A stretch of DNA of 64,000 nt from Echinarachnius parma (Eukaryota; Echinodermata; Echinoidea; Clypeasteroida; Echinarachniidae). The position numbers were made by a program, and so were the translations under genes. Location: the NCBI GenBank assembly GCA_037951105.1, contig JBAMJV010001867.1, positions 1-64,000 of the forward strand, written 5' to 3'. Every line of letters begins with the position of its first letter. Position 1 is the first letter of the stretch. The notes below the pieces were generated by a model. The model did not search any database and was not told the origin of the DNA. It saw nothing but the letters and a program-made list of their open reading frames with translations. Below, one piece after another: positions 3,108-49,676 of this stretch.

Positions 3108-3151
3108 TTAACTTTAACTGTAATGAATAATAGAGGAATAAGTAAACTATT

Positions 3152-3240
3152 CTTGTTTTTGTTTTTGTTGGTGGTGCTCTCCGTAACCCATGAGTCACTT
3201 CCGACATAGGTCAGGCATGTCAAGGGTTGCTTGATTTAAA
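3152..3240 (+). pseudogene. Degenerate signal-peptide exon, copy 1
   Basis: Translation from the TTG-rich stretch gives LLVVLSVTHESLPT followed by a TAG stop at 3207-3209. It aligns with the hydrophobic core and ASLP cleavage region of the intact exon at 3500-3649 and of copy 2 at 3313. The match begins in the signal core, so no start codon survives. It is the most decayed of three tandem copies of one intron-plus-exon unit. Confidence 0.6.
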
Positions 3241-3312
3241 CAAATCATGGCTAACAGATTGATAAATAAATTAATAATAAATTGAATATCTCTTGTTTTT
3301 AAGGATCCAGAC

Positions 3313-3450
3313 ATGAAAATATGCCAGCTTAGAACGGCGATTCCCCTTCTCTTGAACATTATTGTGGTGGTCTCCGCGACATATGCGTCACTTCCGCTAG
3401 AGGTCAAGGATGACTTGATGGAAAATGACAAGTTATCGATACTAAATTAA
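3313..3450 (+). pseudogene. Signal-peptide exon, copy 2, ends in a stop
   Basis: ATG at 3313 opens a 45-codon frame ending in TAA at 3448-3450. It begins MKICQLRTAIPLLLN and continues through a hydrophobic core into TYASLPLEVKDDL, parallel to the intact exon (MKSQLRTVTAMLL ... TYASLPPDVRGE). After ASLP the two diverge, and no good splice donor remains where the intact exon has CAG/GCAAGT. If transcribed it would give only a short secreted fragment. More likely it is a tandem duplicate that has lost function, but use as an alternative first exon through a cryptic donor cannot be excluded. Confidence 0.6.
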
Positions 3451-3499
3451 TAATTATATTCTTGTTTTCTTTTCTTTCTTTTTTGCTAAGGTTCCAGAA

Positions 3500-4245
3500 A
3501 TGAAATCCCAGCTAAGGACAGTGACAGCCATGCTCTTGATAATGTTGGCGGTGGTCTCCACGACCTATGCTTCACTTCCGCCGGATGTCAGGGGTGAATT
3601 CGACGCCCTCAGGACCATGCTCGCTCAAGAGGCGAAATTAACGCTACAGGCAAGTCAATTTTATTGATATCACACACATTCTACATTATATTATTATATT
3701 TGTTCTGGTGTGTTCTTTAATCGTTCAAAGGGATCTAGCAACATTGTCAAAATCCACGAAACTTACTTGGAACTCTAGATGTTGTCACATTACTCGTTCT
3801 ATTATAGAAGAGTGGGCCAAGTGTCGGTTTCCGAATTCTCTTTCATTATCGGTATATCTTTTATTGAAGTGTTCAAATTTGAAAGTCCCCCCCCCCCCCC
3901 CCCCCCCCCCTGGGAGACGACTCGAGCAGCTCTGATACCCTACCTACCGATGTTAGCAGCGTTAATGGGCGGGCTGGGAGGACATTTTGTCATTTTGGTA
4001 TTAATTTTGACATTGATTAATTAGGCTTTTTTTAAAATTTGTTTGTATTACAGAAAATGGCAGAGTTAGAAAAGATCAAGGACCTGTATATGCCGAGCAA
4101 CTCGTACAATCCAAGCATCTCCGACAATTCGTTCGACGGGTACCCAACAGATGCTGTCAGCAAGCGCAGCGGGCGGGCCGGGAGGAAACTACGGCTGTGC
4201 ATGGACGTCATACGGAACAAGTGGCGACTGTGTCGCAGCAACAGG
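3500..4245 (+). CDS. Putative MCH-type secreted neuropeptide precursor (exons 3500-3649 and 4054-4245)
   Basis: Exon 1 has 50 codons from ATG 3500 (context cagaaATGa). It encodes a signal peptide: positive start (MKSQLR), hydrophobic core, likely cleavage after TYA at residue 24. It ends CAG/GCAAGT. Exon 2 begins after ttgtattacag at 4054 in phase 0 and gives 64 codons. Residues 87-88 are KR, a convertase site, followed by SGRAGRKLRLCMDVIRNKWR and LCRSNR. Cys99 and Cys110 would form a 10-residue disulphide ring with Trp-Arg before the second Cys. MCH peptides also have a Cys ring with Tyr/Trp-Arg near the second Cys and sit at the precursor C-terminus; the ring spacing here is wider, as in somatostatin (also x10), so the family call is tentative. 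After residue 114 either a donor (AGG/GTAGGT) leads to a further exon, perhaps at 5303, or read-through reaches a stop at 4300-4302 (132 residues). The secretory design is well supported. Confidence 0.7.
3650..4053 (+). other. Phase-0 intron with a likely GC-AG boundary
   Basis: The donor context is CTACAG/GCAAGT, the consensus for the rare GC donor class. The acceptor is tttgtattacag. Both joined exons are open in phase 0, which supports the boundary. The intron holds a truncated family B transposon (3729-3890) and a C run of about 23 bases near 3888-3910. Confidence 0.6.
3729..3890. mobile_element. Truncated family B MITE in the peptide-gene intron
   Basis: It begins AGGGATCTAGCAACATTGTC and follows the left part of family B (tcctcaaaatcc-, ggaactctag-, and cggtttccgaa-like segments seen at 6023 and 47585). 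It stops at the C homopolymer, so about half the element is missing. Confidence 0.65.
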
Positions 4246-4542
4246 GTAGGTAGACCGAGAAGCAGTCATGATCTGTATCTGTTCCAATCGTTGTTCCACT
4301 GAGACTACGTCTTGTTGGCTCTACCGACCTTTAGGTGGTAGTCGTGGTGTTAGTAAGTCAATCTGTGTAGGAGGGAGGATTCTGACTTGACAGAAAATCA
4401 GTCTTCGCACCAACGCGTTTGTTCTACTAAGACTGCATCTAGTTGGCGCTACCTACCTTTGGGTGGTAGTCGTTGGTAGTAGCAAGTCAATCTGCGGGGG
4501 GGGGGGGGGGGGGGGATCAATGTTCCGATGGTTGTTCCAGAC

Positions 4543-4842
4543 TGGGAGGAAACTACGGCTGTGTATGGACGTCTCAAGCCCTCTGCAGACAGACACCGAC
4601 TCGACCCGATTCAACTGGTTTTCATTCGGATCGGCTCAGTTTTCAGTGCCTCGCGACACACATTTTGCCAGTCGAGAGGCAGTCGGATGTCAATTGGGGC
4701 CGATTCAACACGATGAATCGGATCCGACCGATCGGGCCCAACTCTAGCCTGCTTGAAACCAGTCGGATCGGGTCGAGTCGGCTCTGTCTGCAGAGGGCTT
4801 TACACAACAAGTGGCGACTGTGTCGCAGCAACAGGGTAGGAC
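4543..4842 (+). pseudogene. Second copy of the mature-peptide exon, split by a transposon
   Basis: The left half matches the intact exon from GGGAGGAAACTACGGCTGTG through TATGGACGTC, which encodes the GRKLRLCMDV part. After the 221-bp insertion, ACAAGTGGCGACTGTGTCGC and AGCAACAGGGTAGG resume the NKWRLCRSNR part and the donor-like GTAGGA. The ring is therefore interrupted between its two cysteines and the copy cannot make the peptide. Its upstream flank is the copied intron rather than the exon 5' part, so the duplication captured only the 3' portion of the exon. Confidence 0.75.
4578..4798. mobile_element. Family G MITE, copy 1, inserted in the duplicated peptide exon
   Basis: Inverted ends: GCCCTCTGCAGACAGACACC at left, CTGTCTGCAGAGGGC at right, with inner ACTCGACCCGATTCAACTGG facing AACCAGTCGGATCGGGTCGA. 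Flanks are TCAA (4574-4577) and TTTA (4799-4802), degenerate forms of a TTAA target. The 221-bp length matches the two other G copies at 9615 and 9842 (223 and 221 bp). Confidence 0.75.
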
Positions 4843-4905
4843 ATCAGTCTGCTTTCCGATGATTGCTCCTATGAGACTGCGTCTGACTCCAATTAGGGTG
4901 GGGTG

Positions 4906-5020
4906 CACGGGCGTAGCGAGTTACGTAATACCTATTCAACTGGGGGATGAATGAATAGATCATTCCCCCCCCCCCCCCCCCCCCACTTGAATGGGTATCA
5001 ATGTCATGTCTACGCCCGTG
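4906..5020. mobile_element. hAT-like MITE (CACGGGCGTAG ends) with exact 8-bp duplication
   Basis: Ends CACGGGCGTAG and CTACGCCCGTG are inverted copies. GTGGGGTG is duplicated exactly at 4898-4905 and 5021-5028. The centre has a long C run. A sister copy with its own 8-bp duplication is at 19310-19407. Confidence 0.85.
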
Positions 5021-5302
5021 GTGGGGTGGGTAGTAGCAAGTCAATCTCTGGGGGGGGGGGATTCTGACTTGACAGAAAAACCAGTCTCTATTCCGACGAT
5101 GGATTGTTCCATTGAGACTGCGTGTGGCTCCAGTGACCTTGGGGTCACTTGGTAGTAGGAACTTCCGGTTTAAGGTTGGCTATGTCTTACGGTTGGCCAC
5201 TAACAGGCATATGGCACCGGAAGCTGTCTGTGAGTTTGGGGTCACAATCTGTTGAGCCCTCTTCGTAACTCAATCGTTGCTTATGTGATCTTTTCATTTC
5301 AG

Positions 5303-5504
5303 TTGCAACAATCAAATTACAAAAACAAAAGCAACACCTGTTGTATTATTATTATTTTTTTTTTAATATTTTGTTTTGTCGCTTAATGAAAAGGAAACAA
5401 ATTTAAACGCTTTTTAAGTGTAAGAATATTGCTCCAGATTACCTGTAATTAGTAATAAAGGTATCAACAGGTTGTTTTTTAATTTAGACATGTCTAGTAA
5501 TAAA
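5303..5504 (+). other. Possible terminal exon and polyadenylation region of the peptide gene
   Basis: A good acceptor (gatcttttcatttcag) ends at 5302. Joined in phase 0 to AGG/ at 4245 it would add LQQSNYKNKSNTCC and then a hydrophobic run to a TAA near 5387. AATAAA occurs at 5454-5459 and 5499-5504, the second followed by T/G-rich DNA. The encoded tail looks non-conserved, so this could equally be 3' untranslated sequence after a stop at 4300. Transcript evidence would decide. Confidence 0.3.
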
Positions 5505-6018
5505 TGTTTATTCTGACGCCATTAAATTTTAAAGAAATTTCTAAATCGTCTTCCAAGAATTATTACAAAACCTTTTGCTCGCAATGTACGATAATGAGGT
5601 AATAGCATAATAGTGCAACAATGAGTAATGATCTCTCATAAGCCTTTACCCCAAGCACTGTAATTAGTTATTCTGACGAAAGGAAATGTCTAAATTGCCT
5701 TTCAATTGCAAAACGTGTGCTCCAAATTCACACTAATAAATAAGTCATCAAAAGTGCATTAGTGTTGTTGTTGTTGTTGTTTTGTGTTTATTGGTGTTCT
5801 TCATTCATTTTGAATATTTATTAGTTAGTGATTTAATGACCTCATAGCCTTTACCCCAGGCACTATAATTAACTACCTTAACCTTGTGCACTTGTATTGT
5901 AAAAAAGACCAGCTGTATTGCGATAATTGACAAAATATAATCATTTCTAGGGTATTATTCTTAGGGACAGGGCGATAGGAATTGCAAAATGAAAGTCGCC
6001 GACAACGCGCCGTAAGGA
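5505..6018. repeat. Diverged tandem repeat, about 200-bp unit
   Basis: 'ctcataagcctttacccc' at about 5636 and 'ctcatagcctttacccc' at about 5841 mark two units. 'ttctgacg..a' motifs near 5511 and 5669 and 'aaat..tctaaat' segments also recur. A more decayed third relative (tagccttaagcttaggtgct) appears near 6685. No coding signal. Confidence 0.45.
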
Positions 6019-8155: not shown

Positions 8156-8835
8156 ACAAACAAAATAATTTCTAAGCGGTTTTTGTTTTCTTTCAATTTG
8201 AATAATGAGGGCAGGTGCTAGGTTCACCAAGGGTTCATTTGAACCTAAATCACTTTCATATTCATTGCATTTCGCAGCAATGGCGTAGCATGGGTTAACT
8301 GATATTTTTGTTTAGGGGAGTATAGACGCACAATTGATAAATTGCTTTATTTTATTTCATTTCCTTGGCTTTAAGTTTATAATTTGTTTACGGGCGATTT
8401 ATTGTCACCCCTCACCCCTACACCCCCCCCCCCCCCCCCCCCCCCCCCTCCTCCAACCCACCCCACACCCCTGTGCCCTTGGGAAATATAAGTTAAGCTG
8501 AGAGATTTGTCCATATAATATTTGAATAATTTTGTTTTGTCAATTTTGTTATTATTATCATCATAATTGTGTATGTATTATCATCGTCTATTATCATATT
8601 TTACCATAGCTTTTGTGTTTGTTGTATGATTATTAATATATTCTTCTTTTGTTCTGTTTTTCCATTTACAGAGTAACTGATGTCCACACAGTCCTCGTCC
8701 GTTATATCCGTCGTACCTAAGATCGTGTTCTGTGACGTCAGCATGTTCTATGTCTTTCATCACAATGATTAAAGCCGCCTTCTGAAAAGCATTTTAGCCT
8801 TTAGACTAGAGTGGTGAAGTGTGATGTCATAAATG
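8156..8835. other. Unique DNA with a long C run; no gene seen
   Basis: Contains CAATGGCGTAGCATGGG near 8278, a lone hAT-type end, and about 28 C residues near 8422-8449. No reading frame with domain or splice support. Confidence 0.4.
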
Positions 8836-9470: not shown

Positions 9471-9614
9471 TTAAGGAAAGTCTAGCTCAGCTAATCTTTC
9501 ACTTTATAAAAATTAGCTTAAAAAAGTGGCATTCTCTACCAAGACTAGACTGAAAAAATCAGTCTATATATGCCGCTGGACTGTCGGTTAACACAGTACA
9601 AACATTTGTCTTAA

Positions 9615-9837
9615 GCCGAACGCACACAAAACCGACTCGATCCGATCCGACTGGTTTTCAGTCACGCTAGAGTCAGTTTCGCTCAGTCGGAGCCGATCCA
9701 ACATGTTGAATCGGCCTCGAATGTCCTCCGACTGGCACTTGACTGGAAGAACCGGAGTTCCTGGGGCAGCGCATACTGAGGTAATCAGGCTGAAAACCAG
9801 TCGGATCGGGTCGAGTCGGCTCTGTCTGCGCCGGGCA
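9615..9837. mobile_element. Family G MITE, copy 2
   Basis: TTAA at 9611-9614 and 9838-9841. Ends GCCGAACGCACACAAAACCG and the inverse ending CTGTCTGCGCCGGGCA. Its right TTAA is also the left TTAA of the next copy. It matches the copy inside the peptide exon at 4578. Confidence 0.85.
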
Positions 9838-9841
9838 TTAA

Positions 9842-10062
9842 GCCCAGCGCACACAGAACCGACTCGATCCGATCCGACTGGTTTTCAGTCACGCTAGAGG
9901 CGGTTTCACTCAGTCGAAGCCGGTTCAACATGTTCAATAGGCCTCGGATTACCTCCGCCTGGCTCCTGATTGGCAAAATCGGATTCATTGGGTAAGGCAT
10001 ACTGAGCCGATCCGACTGAACACCAGTCGGATCGGGTCGTGTCGGCTCTGTGTGCGTTGGGC
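9842..10062. mobile_element. Family G MITE, copy 3, abutting copy 2
   Basis: It begins GCCCAGCGCACACAGAACCG directly after the shared TTAA and ends GGCTCTGTGTGCGTTGGGC followed by TTCA (10063-10066). Same length class as the other G copies (221 bp). Its position, end to end with copy 2, implies insertion at the existing TTAA. Confidence 0.85.
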
Positions 10063-10169
10063 TTCACGATTACCAACTCGAAATGGGGTATAGCGTGATT
10101 ATAAAGTCCGAAATTAATTTTTTTTAAAGTAAACCACATGTAGAGTTAGTTAGTTCGGACTATGTATAT

Positions 10170-16887: not shown

Positions 16888-17052
16888 GGGTCCCGTTGCA
16901 GAAAGAGATACAATCGATTGTAAAATACAATTGATTGTAAGTCAGAAACTTTGCGCGTTTCAACCAATCAGATTCGCGCATTTAAAACACATGAACTGAC
17001 TTACAATTAATTGTAACTTACAATCGATTGTATCTCTTTCTGCAACGGGGCC
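16888..17052. mobile_element. Family D palindromic MITE, copy 2
   Basis: GTCCCGTTGCAGAAAGAGAT at left and CTTTCTGCAACGGGGCC at right. The core has CAACCAATCAGATTCGCGCA. Nearly the same length as copy 1. Confidence 0.85.
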
Positions 17053-19217: not shown

Positions 19218-19522
19218 GGCCCAGTGCCCCAGTCCCATACTGACGATTTTCACGGCGACTCGCAACGATTTACTAGAATGAATCGACTCGATTTAGCCAC
19301 GGTTTTGGGCATGGGCGTAGCGACTTACGTAATACCTATTCATCAGGGGGGTGAATGATTATCATCCCCCCAGTTGAATGGGTATTAATGACAGATCTAC
19401 GCCCATGGTTTTGGGGAAGAACCGATACGATGTAATACGATGCAACACGACCTAAGCGATTTTTTCGACGAACGTCAAATCGTTGCGATTCGCCGTGAAA
19501 ATCGTCAGTATGGGACTGGGCC
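19218..19522. mobile_element. TTAA-flanked MITE (family H) with a nested hAT MITE
   Basis: TTAA at 19214-19217 and 19523-19526. Ends GGCCCAG(TGCCCCAG)TCCCATACTGACG and CGTCAGTATGGGACTGGGCC, with inverted GATTTTCACGGCGA and TCGCAACGATTT arms. The left end has an 8-bp internal duplication. The element at 19310-19407 lies inside it. Confidence 0.8.
19310..19407. mobile_element. hAT-like MITE with exact 8-bp duplication, nested in family H
   Basis: CATGGGCGTAGCGACTTACG at left and TCTACGCCCATG at right. GTTTTGGG is duplicated at 19302-19309 and 19408-19415. Sister of the element at 4906-5020 in the peptide gene. Confidence 0.85.
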
Positions 19523-29088: not shown

Positions 29089-32000
29089 TAGTCCAGTCAA
29101 AATATGAAATAACCCACCACTAATTGCAACAGAAACGATTCCACTTGTATATGTTGTAGAATAGCCACCAAAACAACATACTAAAAGTTGACAAAAATTG
29201 AAGTGGTGGATAAGGGTCTAATTTGCATAAATTCAAAATGGCCGCCATACAGCCTTTTCAAGGCCATATCTCTGGATATGAATCACTTAGAAAGTTAATT
29301 CTGGTGTCTACACCCATGTTTTCAAGGTCAAGGAACACAATTGTAACCTAATTAGCAACATTCAGGCAACCCATCATACCTAATTTGCATAAAGTTGTAA
29401 ATAATTTATTCAAAATGGCCGCCATGTATCCTATATAAGCCTTTATCTCAGTATGAACCCAACAGAAAATATGTATTGTATATAGAACCATGTTTCCAGG
29501 TTATGGAACAGAATGTTAGTATATTTGCAACTTTTAAGCACCCCTTTATAGCTAATTTGCATATAAATATATTCAAAATGGCCACCATGTAGGACACTTA
29601 ATCCCATATCTCGAGATATGAGACACATAAAAAGTAAATCTAAGTGTCTACAACCATGTTTTCAAGGTCAATGAACACAATTGTAACCTAATTAGCAAGA
29701 TTCAGGCATCCCATCATGCCTAATTTGCAAAAAGTTGTGAATAATTTATTCAAAATGGCCGCCATGTATCCTATCTAAGCCTTTATCTCAGTATACGAAC
29801 CCAACAGAAAGATGTTTATTGTATATAAAACCATGTTTCCAGGTTATGGACCAGATTATAGTATATTTGCAACATTTAAGCATCCCCCTTAGGCCTAGGC
29901 CTATAGCTAATTTGCATATAAATATATTTTTTAAGGCAGCCATGTACGGCATATGTATATATCATTGGAAATAACACATGTTATGAATTCATTCTGTCGT
30001 TATTCTATATACATATTGTCAATGTCAAACACATGATTGTGGCCATTTCAAGCATATTAATCATGAATACCTAATTTGCATACATTTGAATATACATACA
30101 ATTTAACAGAACTCCTTCCTATAGCTCAGTCTGTATATTAAATATTCGTCGAAATAAATGTTTGACTTAACAGAATATTTAAGAATGTTTTACATTTCAT
30201 TGTTGGCTAGAAATGCTGAAAAACCAATAATGATACCTCATTTGAAGCTAGTGTGAGTTCATAAATGGAATGACCGGAAAATGCATCACAGAGTACAAAT
30301 TCAAATGAAGAGATCAAGCCTTGACTATGAGTGAAAACACATCAGTGCAAACAAAAGAGGGAGCCATCCAAAGCGATCCTCAGCTACTGTTTCAGAGACT
30401 CATAACACAAGACAATCTCCAAGAGGCGTTTGATTATGAGCTGTGTAGCTATCCTCCTGCACTGTTCGAGAACAAGTTTACACCGCGACTGGAGAACAAG
30501 TTCACACCATGACTGGCAAACAAAGCTCAACTGGCTGATACACGTTGGAGTCGTTTCATACCTCCAGGAGCATCTGTACATTCAATACATCTTAGATAGC
30601 GGAGCATTTTACTGCAGTCTGCACAGGATCATCTGGAACAAAGGCCCATCATATGATGACATCTGCAAGCAGTATGTCTCGTATGTGGAGAAACACTATG
30701 ATAAGCCAACTGTGGTGTTTGATGGCTACATGAAGGGCCCGAGTACGAAATACGTCATCCACAAACGCTGAACTGGATTGCGTGTGTGTGTACCTGTACA
30801 AGTTTTCTGGTTCGATGGTATCCAACGAGAAGAAGGAGGACTTTCTCTCCAACAGTAAAAACAAGCAAAAGTTCATCATGCTGCTTGACGGACATCTAAG
30901 ACAGGTTAGGTGCCCTACAAAACATGATCCAGGAGATAATGATCTATTCATTGTCCAGACTGCTATCACCATTGCTGAGGCCGAGGGATTACATACCCAT
31001 ACTGTTCTTGTTGCGGATGAAATGGAAAGTCTGGTTCTCCTTTGTTACCATGCCGAGACAACAATGCAGAACATGTTTCTTCGTCCGGAACCTCGGCACT
31101 GCGTGAAGAAGGAGCAAAGATGTTCGGACATATCACTTCTGAAATCTGCACTGGGTCCACAAGTATGTAACAGCATTTTATGTATGCATGCTTTCCTTGG
31201 CTGTGACACGACATCCCATATTCATGGATTTGGGAAGGGAACAGCTCTGAAGCTTGTTCGCACAACAAGATCTTCCATCGGAACAAGCAGAAGTCTTTGG
31301 AGATCAAAGGAGTACAAAGACCGATGTTATATCAGCAGGAGGGAACGCAATTGTTGGTCTATACAAAAGTTAGCCAGATGATAACCTGAACAGTCTCTGT
31401 CTTCAACGTTTTCATGAGAAGGTCAGCACCTGTAGAGTGCCACCTAGTATGCAACCTACTTATGCAGCTGTTTCTTTTCATAGCCAGTATGTATTCTTGT
31501 CAATGCAGCAATGGAAGGGAAATTAAGTCCAGCCATTGGCCCGGGGTTGGAGTGAACGAGATGGAGAATTTAGTCCGATTTCTTCAGACAAAGCTGCAGG
31601 TCCTAGGAATCTCCTGAAGCACCACAGTTGGCTTATCATAGTGTTTCTCCACATACGAGACATACTGCTTGCAGTTGACTGTCATCATATGATAGACCTT
31701 TGTTCCAGATGATCCTATGCAGACTGCAGTAATGCTCCGCTATCTAAGATGTATTGAATGTACAGATGCTCCTGGAGGCATGAAACGTCTCCAAAGTGTA
31801 TAAGCCAGTTGAGCTTTGTTTCCCAGTCGTGGTGTGAACTTGTTCTCCAGTCGTGATGTGAACTTGTTCTCGAACAGTGCAGGAGGATAGCTACACAGCT
31901 CATAATCAAACGCCTCTTAGAAATTGTCTTGGTGTTTAATATACAGACTGAGCTAGGAAGGAGTTCTGTTAAGTTTTATGTATATTCAAATTTATGCAGA

Positions 32001-41944: not shown

Positions 41945-43265
41945 GGAACTCGTTGGACGTTGGACAATCTCGTTGGATCAACGTTGGACCAACATCGGTA
42001 ACTCGCAGTGAAAAAGAAGTTGGACAATCTCGTTGGACCAACGTTGGACCAACATCGGTAACTCGCAGGGAAATGTACGTTGGACAATCTTGTTGGACCA
42101 ACGTTGGATCAACATCGTTAACTCGCAGTGAAATAGACGTTGGACAATTTCGTTGGACTAACGTTGGATCAACATCGGTAACTCGCAGTGAAAAAGACGT
42201 TGGACAATCTCGTTGGACCGACGTTGGACCAACATCGGTAACTCGCAGTGAAAAAGACGTTGGACAATCTTGTTGGACCAACATTGGACCAACATCGGTA
42301 ACTCGCAGTGAAATGGACGTTGGACAATCTTGTTGGACCAACGTTGGATCAACATCGGTAACTCGCAGTGAAAAAGACGTTGGACAATCTCGTTCGACCA
42401 ACGTTGGACCAACATCGGTAACTCGTAGTGAAAAAGACGTTGGACAATCTCGTTGGACCAACATTGGACCAACATCGGTAACTCGCAGTGAAATGGACGT
42501 GGGACAATCTTGTTGGACCAAAGTTGGACCAACATCGGTAACTCGCAGTGAAAAAGACGTCGGACAATCTCGTTGGACCAACGTTGGACCAACATCGGTA
42601 ACTCGCAGTGAAATGGACGTTGGACAATCTTGTTGGACCAACGTTGGACCAACATCGGTAACTCGCAGTGAAAAAGACGTCGGACAATCTTGTTGGACCA
42701 ACATCGGTAACTCGCAGTGAAATGGACGTTGGACAATCTCGTTGGACCAACGTTGGACCAACATCGGTAACTCGCAGTGAAAAAGACGTTGGACAATCTC
42801 GTTAGCCCAACGTTAGACCAACATCGGTAACTCGCAGTGAAATGGACGTTGTACAATCTTGTTGGACCAACGTTGGACCAACATCGGTAACTCGCAGTGA
42901 AATGGACGTTGTACAATCTTGTTGGACCAACGTTGGACCAACATCGGTAACTCGCAGTGAAGAAGACGTTGGACAATCTTGTTGGACCAACGTTGGACCA
43001 ACATCGGTAACTCGCAGTGAAATTGACGTTGGACAATCTCGTTGGAGCAACGCTGGACCAACATCGGTAACTCGCAGTGAAAAAGACGTTGGACAATCTT
43101 GTTGGACCAACGTTGGATCAACATCGGTACCTCGCAGTGAAAAAGACGTTGGACAATCTCGTTGGATCAACATCGGTAATTCGCAGTGAAAAAGACGTTG
43201 GACGATCTCGTTGGATCAACATCGGTAACTCACAGTGAAAAAGACGTTGGACAATCTCGTTATAC
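41945..43265. repeat. 60-bp tandem array, about 22 units
   Basis: The unit is GTTGGACAATCTCGTTGGAC, CAACGTTGGACCAACATCGG, TAACTCGCAGTGAAAAAGAC. Two variants end AAAAAGAC or AAATGGAC and roughly alternate. Three units (near 42690 and 43165-43240) have lost 15-16 bp around CAACGTTGGAC. Because 60 is divisible by three and stops are scarce in the unit, open frames of 260-315 codons appear on both strands; they are not genes. Confidence 0.95.
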
Positions 43266-43439
43266 CAACAGTAATGAGTGGACTCAAGTAGAATTACAAT
43301 CATAAATAGAAGTGCGCCATCCCCGGTGAATTACCATATAGGATCGATATGTATATTATCGGGTGTCAAGAAACCATGTATGAGTTGGGCCATCGATCTA
43401 CAAGCAGTTAATAAAGTAAGCTTTCAACTATACTCGTGT

Positions 43440-44292
43440 GCCTACTTGTATTATATTACAACATGCATTGTCTGAAGTGAAAGTGACTGTATGTCTGATT
43501 CGATTCGCCATGACCTGTGTTGTAGAAATGCTAATTTGAATCCATTTTGGGAGGCGAGCTTCACGGTTGATGTGTGACCGGATATACCATCCAGAAAACG
43601 CTTTATTGAGAACTGTACTGTTTGTTATCAACGGTGCATAGCTAGTAGGAAGAAAGAGCTCCAGAAGAGGCAGAAGCGATACTATGACCAGGGTGCCAAG
43701 TCGCTGCCGGTGTTGAAGTCTGGAGAACGTGTGTACTACCAAGTGGGAAAAGAATGGAAACCTGGCGTAGTGACAACTCAAGATTCAACGCCCCGCTCGT
43801 ACCACATCCAGAGTGAGAAAGGTGGGCGGTATCGCCGGAACAGACATCATCTAAAGAAGCGTCGCGCACCTGAAGGTAACATCCATGTTCCAGTAAACGA
43901 GGAAACGGAGGTCCCAGAAGCGTGCTGGAGTGAGGTGAAGCCGCCCTCGCAAGAACGTGACAGGCGCTACCCACTTCGACGTCTCAGACCCCCGGATAGA
44001 TTAGATTTGTGATAGAGATGAATACCATTTAGGGCAGAATAATCCCTTGGTATCATCTAGGCGTTGGGTAGTCCACCCTGGCACTAGCACGTTAAACCAT
44101 TTTGCATTAAGGTAAATGTCGGTCTTACATAGGGGATGACAACCGTACGAAAGGGGCAGAATAATCCCCTGGTTCCATCTTCTGGGTGTCGGGTAGTCTA
44201 CCCTGACACTCAAGTTTGTAATTTACCAGTATTTATTATTGTTATGCCAGAGTTACACATGGCATTTCGCCTACTTGTATTATATTACAACA
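43440..44292. mobile_element. Gypsy-remnant insertion bounded by 24-bp direct repeats
   Basis: The 24-bp word GCCTACTTGTATTATATTAC plus AACA occurs at 43440-43463 and 44269-44292. After the second copy the 60-bp array motif resumes. The left repeat is preceded by AATAAA (43411) and ends in CA, as an LTR 3' end would. The two flanks agree only over this word, so if they are LTR ends the rest has diverged or been deleted. 'agggcagaataatccc' recurs at 44030 and 44155. Confidence 0.55.
43620..44012 (+). pseudogene. Ty3/gypsy pol 3' end: integrase C-terminal region
   Basis: The translation (ending with a TGA at 44010-44012) contains ELQKRQKRYYDQGAKSLPVL, then SGERVYYQVGKEWKPGVV, STPRSYHIQSEKGGRYRRNR and HHLKK. 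This is the linker and GPY/F-like module that follows the integrase core in Ty3/gypsy elements (the usual pattern is YYDRGAKPLP, GDRV, W.P..V, TPRSY and YRRNRRHL). No integrase core, RNase H or RT is present upstream, so only the pol tail survives. A purine tract (GAAAGGGGCAGA near 44149) and a TGT...ACA segment ending at 44292 would fit a PPT and 3' LTR. Confidence 0.8.
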
Positions 44293-47973: not shown

Positions 47974-49676
47974 AAAGAAGGACATGTTATCTTTTAAAAG
48001 ATCTACGTGGTCTACGAACTAAAGTAATATCCGTGTCAGCCTGGATAAGTATTGCTCCCTTTTATAAATCCAACATGGGCTAATGGTTTTCATACAAAAT
48101 TGATCAGCAAAATAAGATTTATAAAACTATAATTGTAAAACGTGTGGGAGTGAAATAAAATGGTTTATAGCAAGTTTTGAAAAACTAAAAATGTATATCA
48201 TAATCTTAGTAGTCGGAATTTTATTTCCGTAGCAAACAAGTTTCAGGGCCAGTGGCATAGCTTCTTGCGGCTTGGAAGGGGCCACGCGCTCCCCCATATA
48301 TTGGCAGAAATTATTATAGATGTATTTAAACATACCAAAAAAAAAGCAAAAAAAAACTTAAATTGTGTTTTGAGATATTTTCGAGTATAGCTGATTATTT
48401 ATTAATATAAAAATTAATTATTTATTTATTTTTTGAATTAATTATTATATTATGTATGTATTTATGTATGTATATATGTATTTATTAATTTATTTATTAA
48501 TTAATGTATTTATTTAGTTATTTATTTATTTATTTATATTATTTATATTATTATCGATAATAAATTAATGTTAACAATGTAATTATTATTATATATATCA
48601 TTATCGATAATAAATTAATGTACAGAAATTATACTTGCTTTGAGAAGTTGAATTAAAAGTTCATTTGTATATGTACAAAACTACAAAAATTACTACCAGC
48701 AAGTTATATACGAGTACAAATACGATAAAGAAAATATGAGATACATTTTATCATAACTTTACAAATATCTTTTATTACGTAATGAGCGAATTATCATTTG
48801 AACGGAATTATTTTGTATTTTAGAATGACGGCCTTAATTTAAAATTGTCAAAATTGGTGTTCATTGCGATTTGCAAACACGTCTGTCATTATAAGACAAT
48901 AACGTTAATTCAATTATATATACCTTACGCCTTTTTTTTTTTTATTTGTTTACGTTAAAGTGATCCATGTAACGTGTCAGATATTGCACAAAATGACATT
49001 TGAGACTTCAATCCTATATCAATATCATTGTAAAATACAATTAGAAGATTTGTGAAAGTTTGAAAGAAAACGTCCACTGTTTACCTAGTGAAAAAAACGA
49101 ATGAGTTCATATGTTATCACCGAATACTGATGGCCTGCCGTAGATTTGTTGCAGTAATAATCGTCCGTTTGAGTTTTATATCCGCACCCGTGTAATACAG
49201 ACGGTACAGAATTTGCGCGCGCTCAGCTCAACGACTCGTCGTGCTGCCGAAGGTTTCGGCTACTCCGCAGGCCAGAGTCCGTGATCGCGTGGCGCGCCGG
49301 CCGGGCGTGTTCAACTACGGCAATTGTACGTTTTACCAAAAAGCGTTGGCTAACGCTTTTGAAATGATGATTTTCAATGATAATTATCTTCATACTGAAG
49401 GGACATTTGAAAAAATCTAACCATATTTTATTCTTCTCTTACCAAATGCTAAACAACACGACAGAAGAGAACTGAGGAAGCTCCAAGTAATTTTCGTGGA
49501 GTTAGACACTTTACTTGTGAAAGGGAATTGTGAAACCGACTGCAGCGAAATTAACCTAAAATATTTAACAAGTCTTTTCAAATATCCATCCAATTTTCAG
49601 ATTCAATCAAAAGTGACATGAGTTTTATGTATGTATCTATCATATGAACGCCGTGTGAAAACGTAGTTAAAGGGAT
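47974..49676. other. AT-rich DNA with a CpG-rich patch; no gene assigned
   Basis: 48380-48560 is TATTTATT-type low-complexity sequence, and 'ttatcgataataaattaatg' repeats at 48551 and 48602. 49195-49325 is strikingly CpG-rich (tttgcgcgcgctcagc, gtggcgcgccggccgggcgt) within AT-rich DNA. No acceptable coding frame or splice pair lets me call an exon or promoter. Confidence 0.45.

Follow-up and report, generated by a model that had tools for sequence, protein, structure and literature searches.

The stretch of DNA analysed here (64,000 bp; 37% GC), hereafter referred to as the window, carries on its plus strand a small gene that extends from about 3.1 to 8.8 kb. The exon copies, stop codons, insertions and splice motifs of this locus, as well as the diagnostic residues of the encoded peptide, can be read directly from the DNA. 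Splice sites are ranked for acceptors among 2903 AG sites, for GC donors among 2198 sites and for GT donors among 3738 sites. The features of the locus are as follows:

3123..3209, plus strand: decayed signal-peptide exon copy (SP1), recognized by alignment and reading frame
3304..3450, plus strand: signal-peptide exon copy with an acceptor, its own donor lost (SP2)
3491..3649, plus strand: intact signal-peptide exon with its ATG at 3500 and a phase-0 GC donor (SP3)
3936..3982, plus strand: possible further partial copy of the end of the P1 pro-region, weakly indicated (P0)
4054..4245, plus strand: intact exon encoding a pro-region, Lys-Arg and a probable MCH-type ring (P1)
4251..5175, plus strand: repeat array of intron 2 with the units A1, A2, A4 and A5
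4541..4835, plus strand: partial, interrupted copy of the ring exon (P2; acceptor rank 109/2903, donor rank 84/3738)
4578..4798, no strand assigned: 221-bp MITE inside P2, between TCAA and TTTA
4906..5020, no strand assigned: 115-bp hAT-like element with an 8-bp target duplication, GTGGGGTG, on both sides
8672..8790, plus strand: most likely terminal exon (acceptor rank 13/2903; ATTAAA at 8768; 3' end approximate)

A first-pass annotation had given 3152..5165 for the locus, an interval that ends before the predicted last coding exon. The MCH type of the peptide, the acceptors of SP2 and SP3, the terminal exon and the repeat array around P2 are points absent from it.

The three tandem signal-peptide exons recognized in that annotation are borne out by alignment and resampling. 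The SP3 exon reaches local alignment scores of 51 against the SP2 region and of 28 against the SP1 region, while the maxima obtained with 1000 Markov-resampled sequences are 15 and 13, respectively; the tandem self-match of 3171-3416 with 3364-3600 comprises 246 columns at 68% (E 2.6e-17), and the copies diverge from each other by 25-32%. Their states are also as described, one with a TAG, one with an early stop and one intact: SP1 can be read from an ATG through 28 codons, MNNRGISKLFLFLFLLVVLSVTHESLPT, to a TAG at 3207-3209, SP2 from its ATG at 3313 through 45 codons to a TAA at 3448-3450, and the reading frame of SP3 is open up to its donor. This donor, CAG/GCAAGT, has the top score among the 2198 GC sites; neither SP1 nor SP2 has a donor at the place aligned to it, and SP1 has no acceptor at the aligned place either. 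The acceptors of SP3 (rank 18/2903) and SP2 (rank 271/2903) are pyrimidine-rich and located just 5' of the ATG; hence, both have the appearance of internal exons preceded by an unseen 5' exon. SP2 and SP3 differ at 14/33 third codon positions and at 13/66 other positions (p 0.03, one test), with a dN of 0.30 and a dS of 0.47 over 33 codons. SP1 shows no third-position bias when it is compared with SP3 (7, 3 and 4 differences of 17, 18 and 17) or with SP2 (7, 4 and 7 differences). These patterns, whose statistical power is low, fit an SP2 exon that stayed coding longer than SP1. Upstream of the gene, a tandem array is present (1517-1818) whose 35-bp units abound in the palindromic words CACAGTGTG/CACACTGTG, and intron 1 harbors a dispersed repeat (3727-3884) with relatives (66-88% over various lengths) at seven places in the window (6021, 11618, 16512, 21653, 38403, 47583, 49508).

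The P1 exon encodes a pro-region, Lys-Arg directly before the peptide, and then SGRAGRKLRLCMDVIRNKWRLCRSNR. Its donor, AGG/GTAGGT, ranks 26/3738, and its acceptor is mediocre (rank 333/2903) and weaker than the candidate acceptor of P2 (109/2903). The stretch CMDVIRNKWRLC of P1 contains two cysteine residues, C11 and C22, with ten residues between them. Echinoderm MCH-type peptides have, according to the accessible part of the account, C11, D13, W19, R20 and C22 in common, and R6 and R23 mark the non-crinoid classes (PMC9793003); the P1 translation possesses every one of the common residues and, as in the non-crinoid classes, both R6 and R23. In this translation, moreover, the first Cys is followed by an M, the extra DV is present, and the residue penultimate to the second Cys is basic; the rule given for MCH peptides names M or I at the first of these places, an additional DW or DV, and a basic residue at the last (PMC4772807). 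Since no database relative was found, the MCH name is founded on these diagnostic residues, as is the placement of the animal among the non-crinoid echinoderms. Judged by the residues that it shares with them, the P1 peptide is probably of the echinoderm MCH type, and we regard the locus, with reasonable confidence, as a neuropeptide gene of the MCH type that has one working exon set and comes from a non-crinoid echinoderm. Counted against this model are the mediocre P1 acceptor, the absent database relatives and a pro-region of ~62 aa, which is longer than that in the 88-aa starfish precursor. The possible further copy of the end of the pro-region, P0, has a score of 35, a value reached by 1/2000 resamplings; a tile at 49201 scores 35 too.

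Searches of a protein collection, which may hold no echinoderm MCH precursors, gave no relative for any of 7 candidates at E 1e-3 or for any of 8 candidates at E 10. Solved structures contained no relative of the precursor, Rfam yielded 0 matches, and Pfam had no family above its cut-off, the sole sub-threshold match being B2 (E 0.088; 13.1 bits vs. 25). Among the neighboring ORFs, 10 of 415 stop-to-stop ORFs were compared with Pfam, with 0 matches above the cut-off and one weak match (E 0.051). The peptide stretch MDVIRNKWR was not met in a literature search that would miss a mention of the stretch alone. No title or abstract opening among the matches listed on echinoderm MCH and on exon duplication describes such an MCH gene, nor do the titles and abstract openings of the best 20 of 106 matches on sea-cucumber precursors.

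Somatostatin-14 has a ring of the same size as that found here, and a somatostatin-like ring instead of one of the MCH type is an interpretation that we consider improbable. It would agree with the phase-0 intron after the signal region that has been described for SS/ASTC-type genes, those of echinoderms included, but the FWK/IWK core of the echinoderm SS2 peptides and the FXP core of the SS1 peptides (PMC7536072, as far as accessible) are missing, the core here being IRNKWRL, and all residues given for echinoderm MCH are present. With the MCH type as the preferred assignment, the end of the gene leaves considerably more room for a different solution. Six acceptors between 4250 and 12000 score above threshold, namely 10834 (11.5, the best), 8672 (11.0, the second-best), 5860 (9.6), 7163, 8975 and 7064. 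The acceptor at 8672 adds Ser-Asn-stop, giving a 28-aa peptide, and an ATTAAA is present downstream at 8768; the starfish MCH-type peptide has likewise been reported to be 28 aa long (PMC4772807, in part). Use of the 5860 acceptor would add Ala-Leu-stop with an ATTAAA at 6018 and would also yield 28 aa, so that peptide length does not single out 8672, whereas 7163 would add Thr-stop. The higher-scoring 10834 acceptor would lead to a 20-aa tail containing two further Cys, which speaks against it. A terminal exon at 5303 (acceptor rank 104/2903) would append a long hydrophobic tail and is not preferred. We consider it a tangible, though clearly minor, possibility that the gene ends in one of these other terminal exons, in which case anywhere from a few to about twenty residues at the C-terminus of the peptide would be different; the exon at 8672 is the most likely one.

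With this exon, the transcript would start at a presumed upstream non-coding exon and would be spliced to SP3 (3491-3649), from there to P1 (4054-4245), and finally to the terminal exon; both joins between these three exons are in phase 0. The predicted product is a 116-aa precursor consisting of a signal peptide, the pro-region, the Lys-Arg cutting site and the 28-aa peptide SGRAGRKLRLCMDVIRNKWRLCRSNRSN, which would be cyclised through a Cys11-Cys22 disulphide and secreted as an MCH-type hormone. SP1, SP2 and P2 would be silent local duplicates that make no further contribution to the product, with P2 representing a partial ring copy that lies within the repeat array of the intron, is interrupted by a MITE and is no longer in frame. 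Splicing, cleavage, disulphide, secretion, terminal exon and the silence of the copies are the inferred components of this model, and the position of the peptide at the C-terminus of the precursor, after the dibasic site, hinges on the predicted terminal exon.

The published descriptions of related systems, accessible in part, provide several points of comparison. ArMCHP of Asterias rubens and AmMCHP of Antedon mediterranea resemble the precursor predicted here in their ring residues and in the dibasic cut before the peptide; with the terminal exon at 8672, the C-terminal place of the peptide would agree as well, and so would the length of 28 aa in the case of ArMCHP. The precursors themselves differ in size (116 aa here vs. 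88 aa for ArMCHP and 91 aa for AmMCHP), and decayed extra exon copies, as present here, are not mentioned in the accessible parts of the accounts of ArMCHP and AmMCHP. Vertebrate PMCH is like the predicted gene in having the signal peptide on an early exon, a C-terminal peptide and two introns in the coding part; an intron is situated in codon 4 of mammalian MCH (PMC6901935), whereas intron 2 would follow residue 26 here. The ring of invertebrate MCH is described as two residues longer than its vertebrate counterpart (PMC4772807). Signalling of the MCH type is possibly confined to deuterostomes; its role in echinoderms is described as still awaiting study.

The first-pass annotation had also recognized two copies of the Cys-ring exon, the second split by an insertion and expected to show homology on both sides of it, and this is what the alignment with P1 reveals, although the second copy is only partial. 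Its left arm is identical to P1 at 29/30 bases and its right arm at 35/35, five of the latter being intronic; the arm scores are 28 and 36, compared with null maxima of 12 and 16 (1000 resamplings each). Taken together, 64/65 bases are identical, the sole change is synonymous, and the likeness stops 5 nt into the intron. P2 has neither a pro-region nor Lys-Arg. The arms are separated by 232 nt in P2 and by 6 nt in P1, a net insertion of 226 nt. An element of 221 bp plus a target duplication of 4 bp would amount to 225; the one remaining base keeps P2 out of frame even with the transposon allowed for.

That a TTAA-type MITE splits this copy is correct with regard to the 221-bp element and to its relatives, but not to its own flanks. 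The terminal inverted repeats of the element (40/44 columns identical) are like those of TTAA-family (piggyBac-like) MITEs, and family copies, 73-75% identical, are found in the window at 9606-9829 and 9840-10064. The window relatives sit at TTAA, one of them likewise with a changed copy, whereas the element in P2 lies between TCAA and TTTA, which both deviate from TTAA by a single step and from one another at 2/4 places; either this site is mutated or the insertion was non-standard. The two family copies at 9606-10064 are arranged head-to-tail and have a common TTAA at their junction. The hAT MITE that had been annotated in the intron was recovered as the 115-bp element at 4906-5020. It has a perfect target duplication, terminal inverted repeats CACGGGCGTAG/CTACGCCCGTG and a relative at 19310-19407 (75%); it resembles hAT-like MITEs in its 8-bp target duplication and short terminal inverted repeats, shows nothing unusual, and is without coding capacity.

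P2 and both elements are located in the intron-2 array, whose units A1 (4251-4404), A2 (4405-4540), A4 (4841-5090, with the hAT-like element inside) and A5 (5085-5175) are 60-70% alike pairwise in a multiple alignment. The 64/65 identity of the P2 arms stands against 83/123 in the array (Fisher 6.5e-8), a contrast that is softened by the best local pieces of the array, which reach 81-91%. We favor the reading that P2 is a short copy of recent origin within an older array; the unequal target-site flanks of its MITE argue for some age and are left unexplained by it. Alternatively, selection may have held P2 until lately, or conversion may have kept it alike. A tandem duplication of an exon-plus-intron unit as the sole origin of P2 is disfavored by its right flank, which scores 60 against an internal array junction and 38 against the right flank of P1 itself.

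Could any of the duplicated exons be in use? We attach only a slim chance to the idea that P2 or SP2 is present in some transcripts, with the MITE either spliced out or contributing part of a different C-terminus; if true, one MCH gene would give rise to more than one ring form or leader. The reading frame of the right arm of P2 is shared by an inner CAG of the MITE (4791-4793), but removal of the MITE as an intron is unlikely, as the GT of the left arm ranks 3298/3738 and is thus among the worst in the window. That P2 itself serves as a genuine second ring exon of symmetrical phase 0, or did so until recently, together with or instead of P1, would be in keeping with its acceptor and donor, with the near-identity of its arms and with the end of the likeness 5 nt into the intron. 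There is also precedent for it: brittle-star and sea-cucumber calcitonin genes have extra peptide exons used by alternative splicing, and the sea-cucumber PDF gene has an optional exon (PMC5627052, PMC6586643, both in part). The calcitonin and PDF genes of Apostichopus japonicus and the brittle-star calcitonin gene thus share with the present locus more than one peptide-bearing or optional exon per gene. However, their exons are reported to be intact and spliced, while the second ring copy here is partial, split and thrown out of frame by the 226-nt net insertion, and it is missing the pro-region and Lys-Arg. Moreover, selection alone would be expected to leave more than the 1 change observed at ~14 synonymous sites (P 0.10 to 0.03 at a neutral divergence of 25-32%), and we judge a functional P2 to be unlikely. 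Even less probable, in our view, is a role of SP2 as an alternative leader exon that is joined to P1 via an inner phase-0 donor (GAG/GTCAAG, 3402/3403): its acceptor, ATG and signal-like sequence are all kept, and both the third-position excess and the dN and dS values relative to SP3 would agree with such a role, but the inner donor is weak (rank 415/3738) and the exon's own donor is gone. An assembly error, or the end-to-end joining of two alleles, might create some of the copies in a stretch with many repeats and long runs of G and C; the 25-32% divergence of the SP copies and the disruption of P2 by elements with their own boundaries are not what an allelic or read-level error would give, and this explanation is improbable in our view.

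Hence, one ordinary peptide hormone is probably the product of the locus, next to clear exon duplication and decay. The stages of amplification and loss that had been ascribed to it stand in this sense; to call the gene expanded is an overstatement, since the intact exons number one for the signal peptide and one for the ring, with no sign that any copy adds a product. The decayed SP1, the donor-less SP2, the young split P2 and the intact exon set adjoin each other, making this a compact case of exon duplication ending in loss, and the copies also illustrate how an intermediate on the way to a two-peptide gene might appear. Furthermore, a genomic model with exon boundaries permits the comparison of intron positions with vertebrate PMCH.

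Several other features were observed elsewhere in the window. A palindromic element at 347-498 has arms at 347-397 and 448-498 (48/51 columns alike), and ATACAATCGATTGTAA motifs like those of this element recur near 16908-17032. The segment 30460-31875 has the appearance of a DNA transposon that carries subterminal repeats: an ORF (30734-31378), which has 17 relatives without Pfam names in the protein collection, lies between paired 24-bp repeats that are oppositely oriented (30468-30523 and 31816-31871). A 144-aa ORF at 43578-44009 resembles, as an impression from the sequence, the C-terminal part of a retroelement integrase; it had no Pfam match at E 0.1. A 60-bp tandem array at 41956-43269 (22.5 copies, 89% matches) contains long open frames on both strands.
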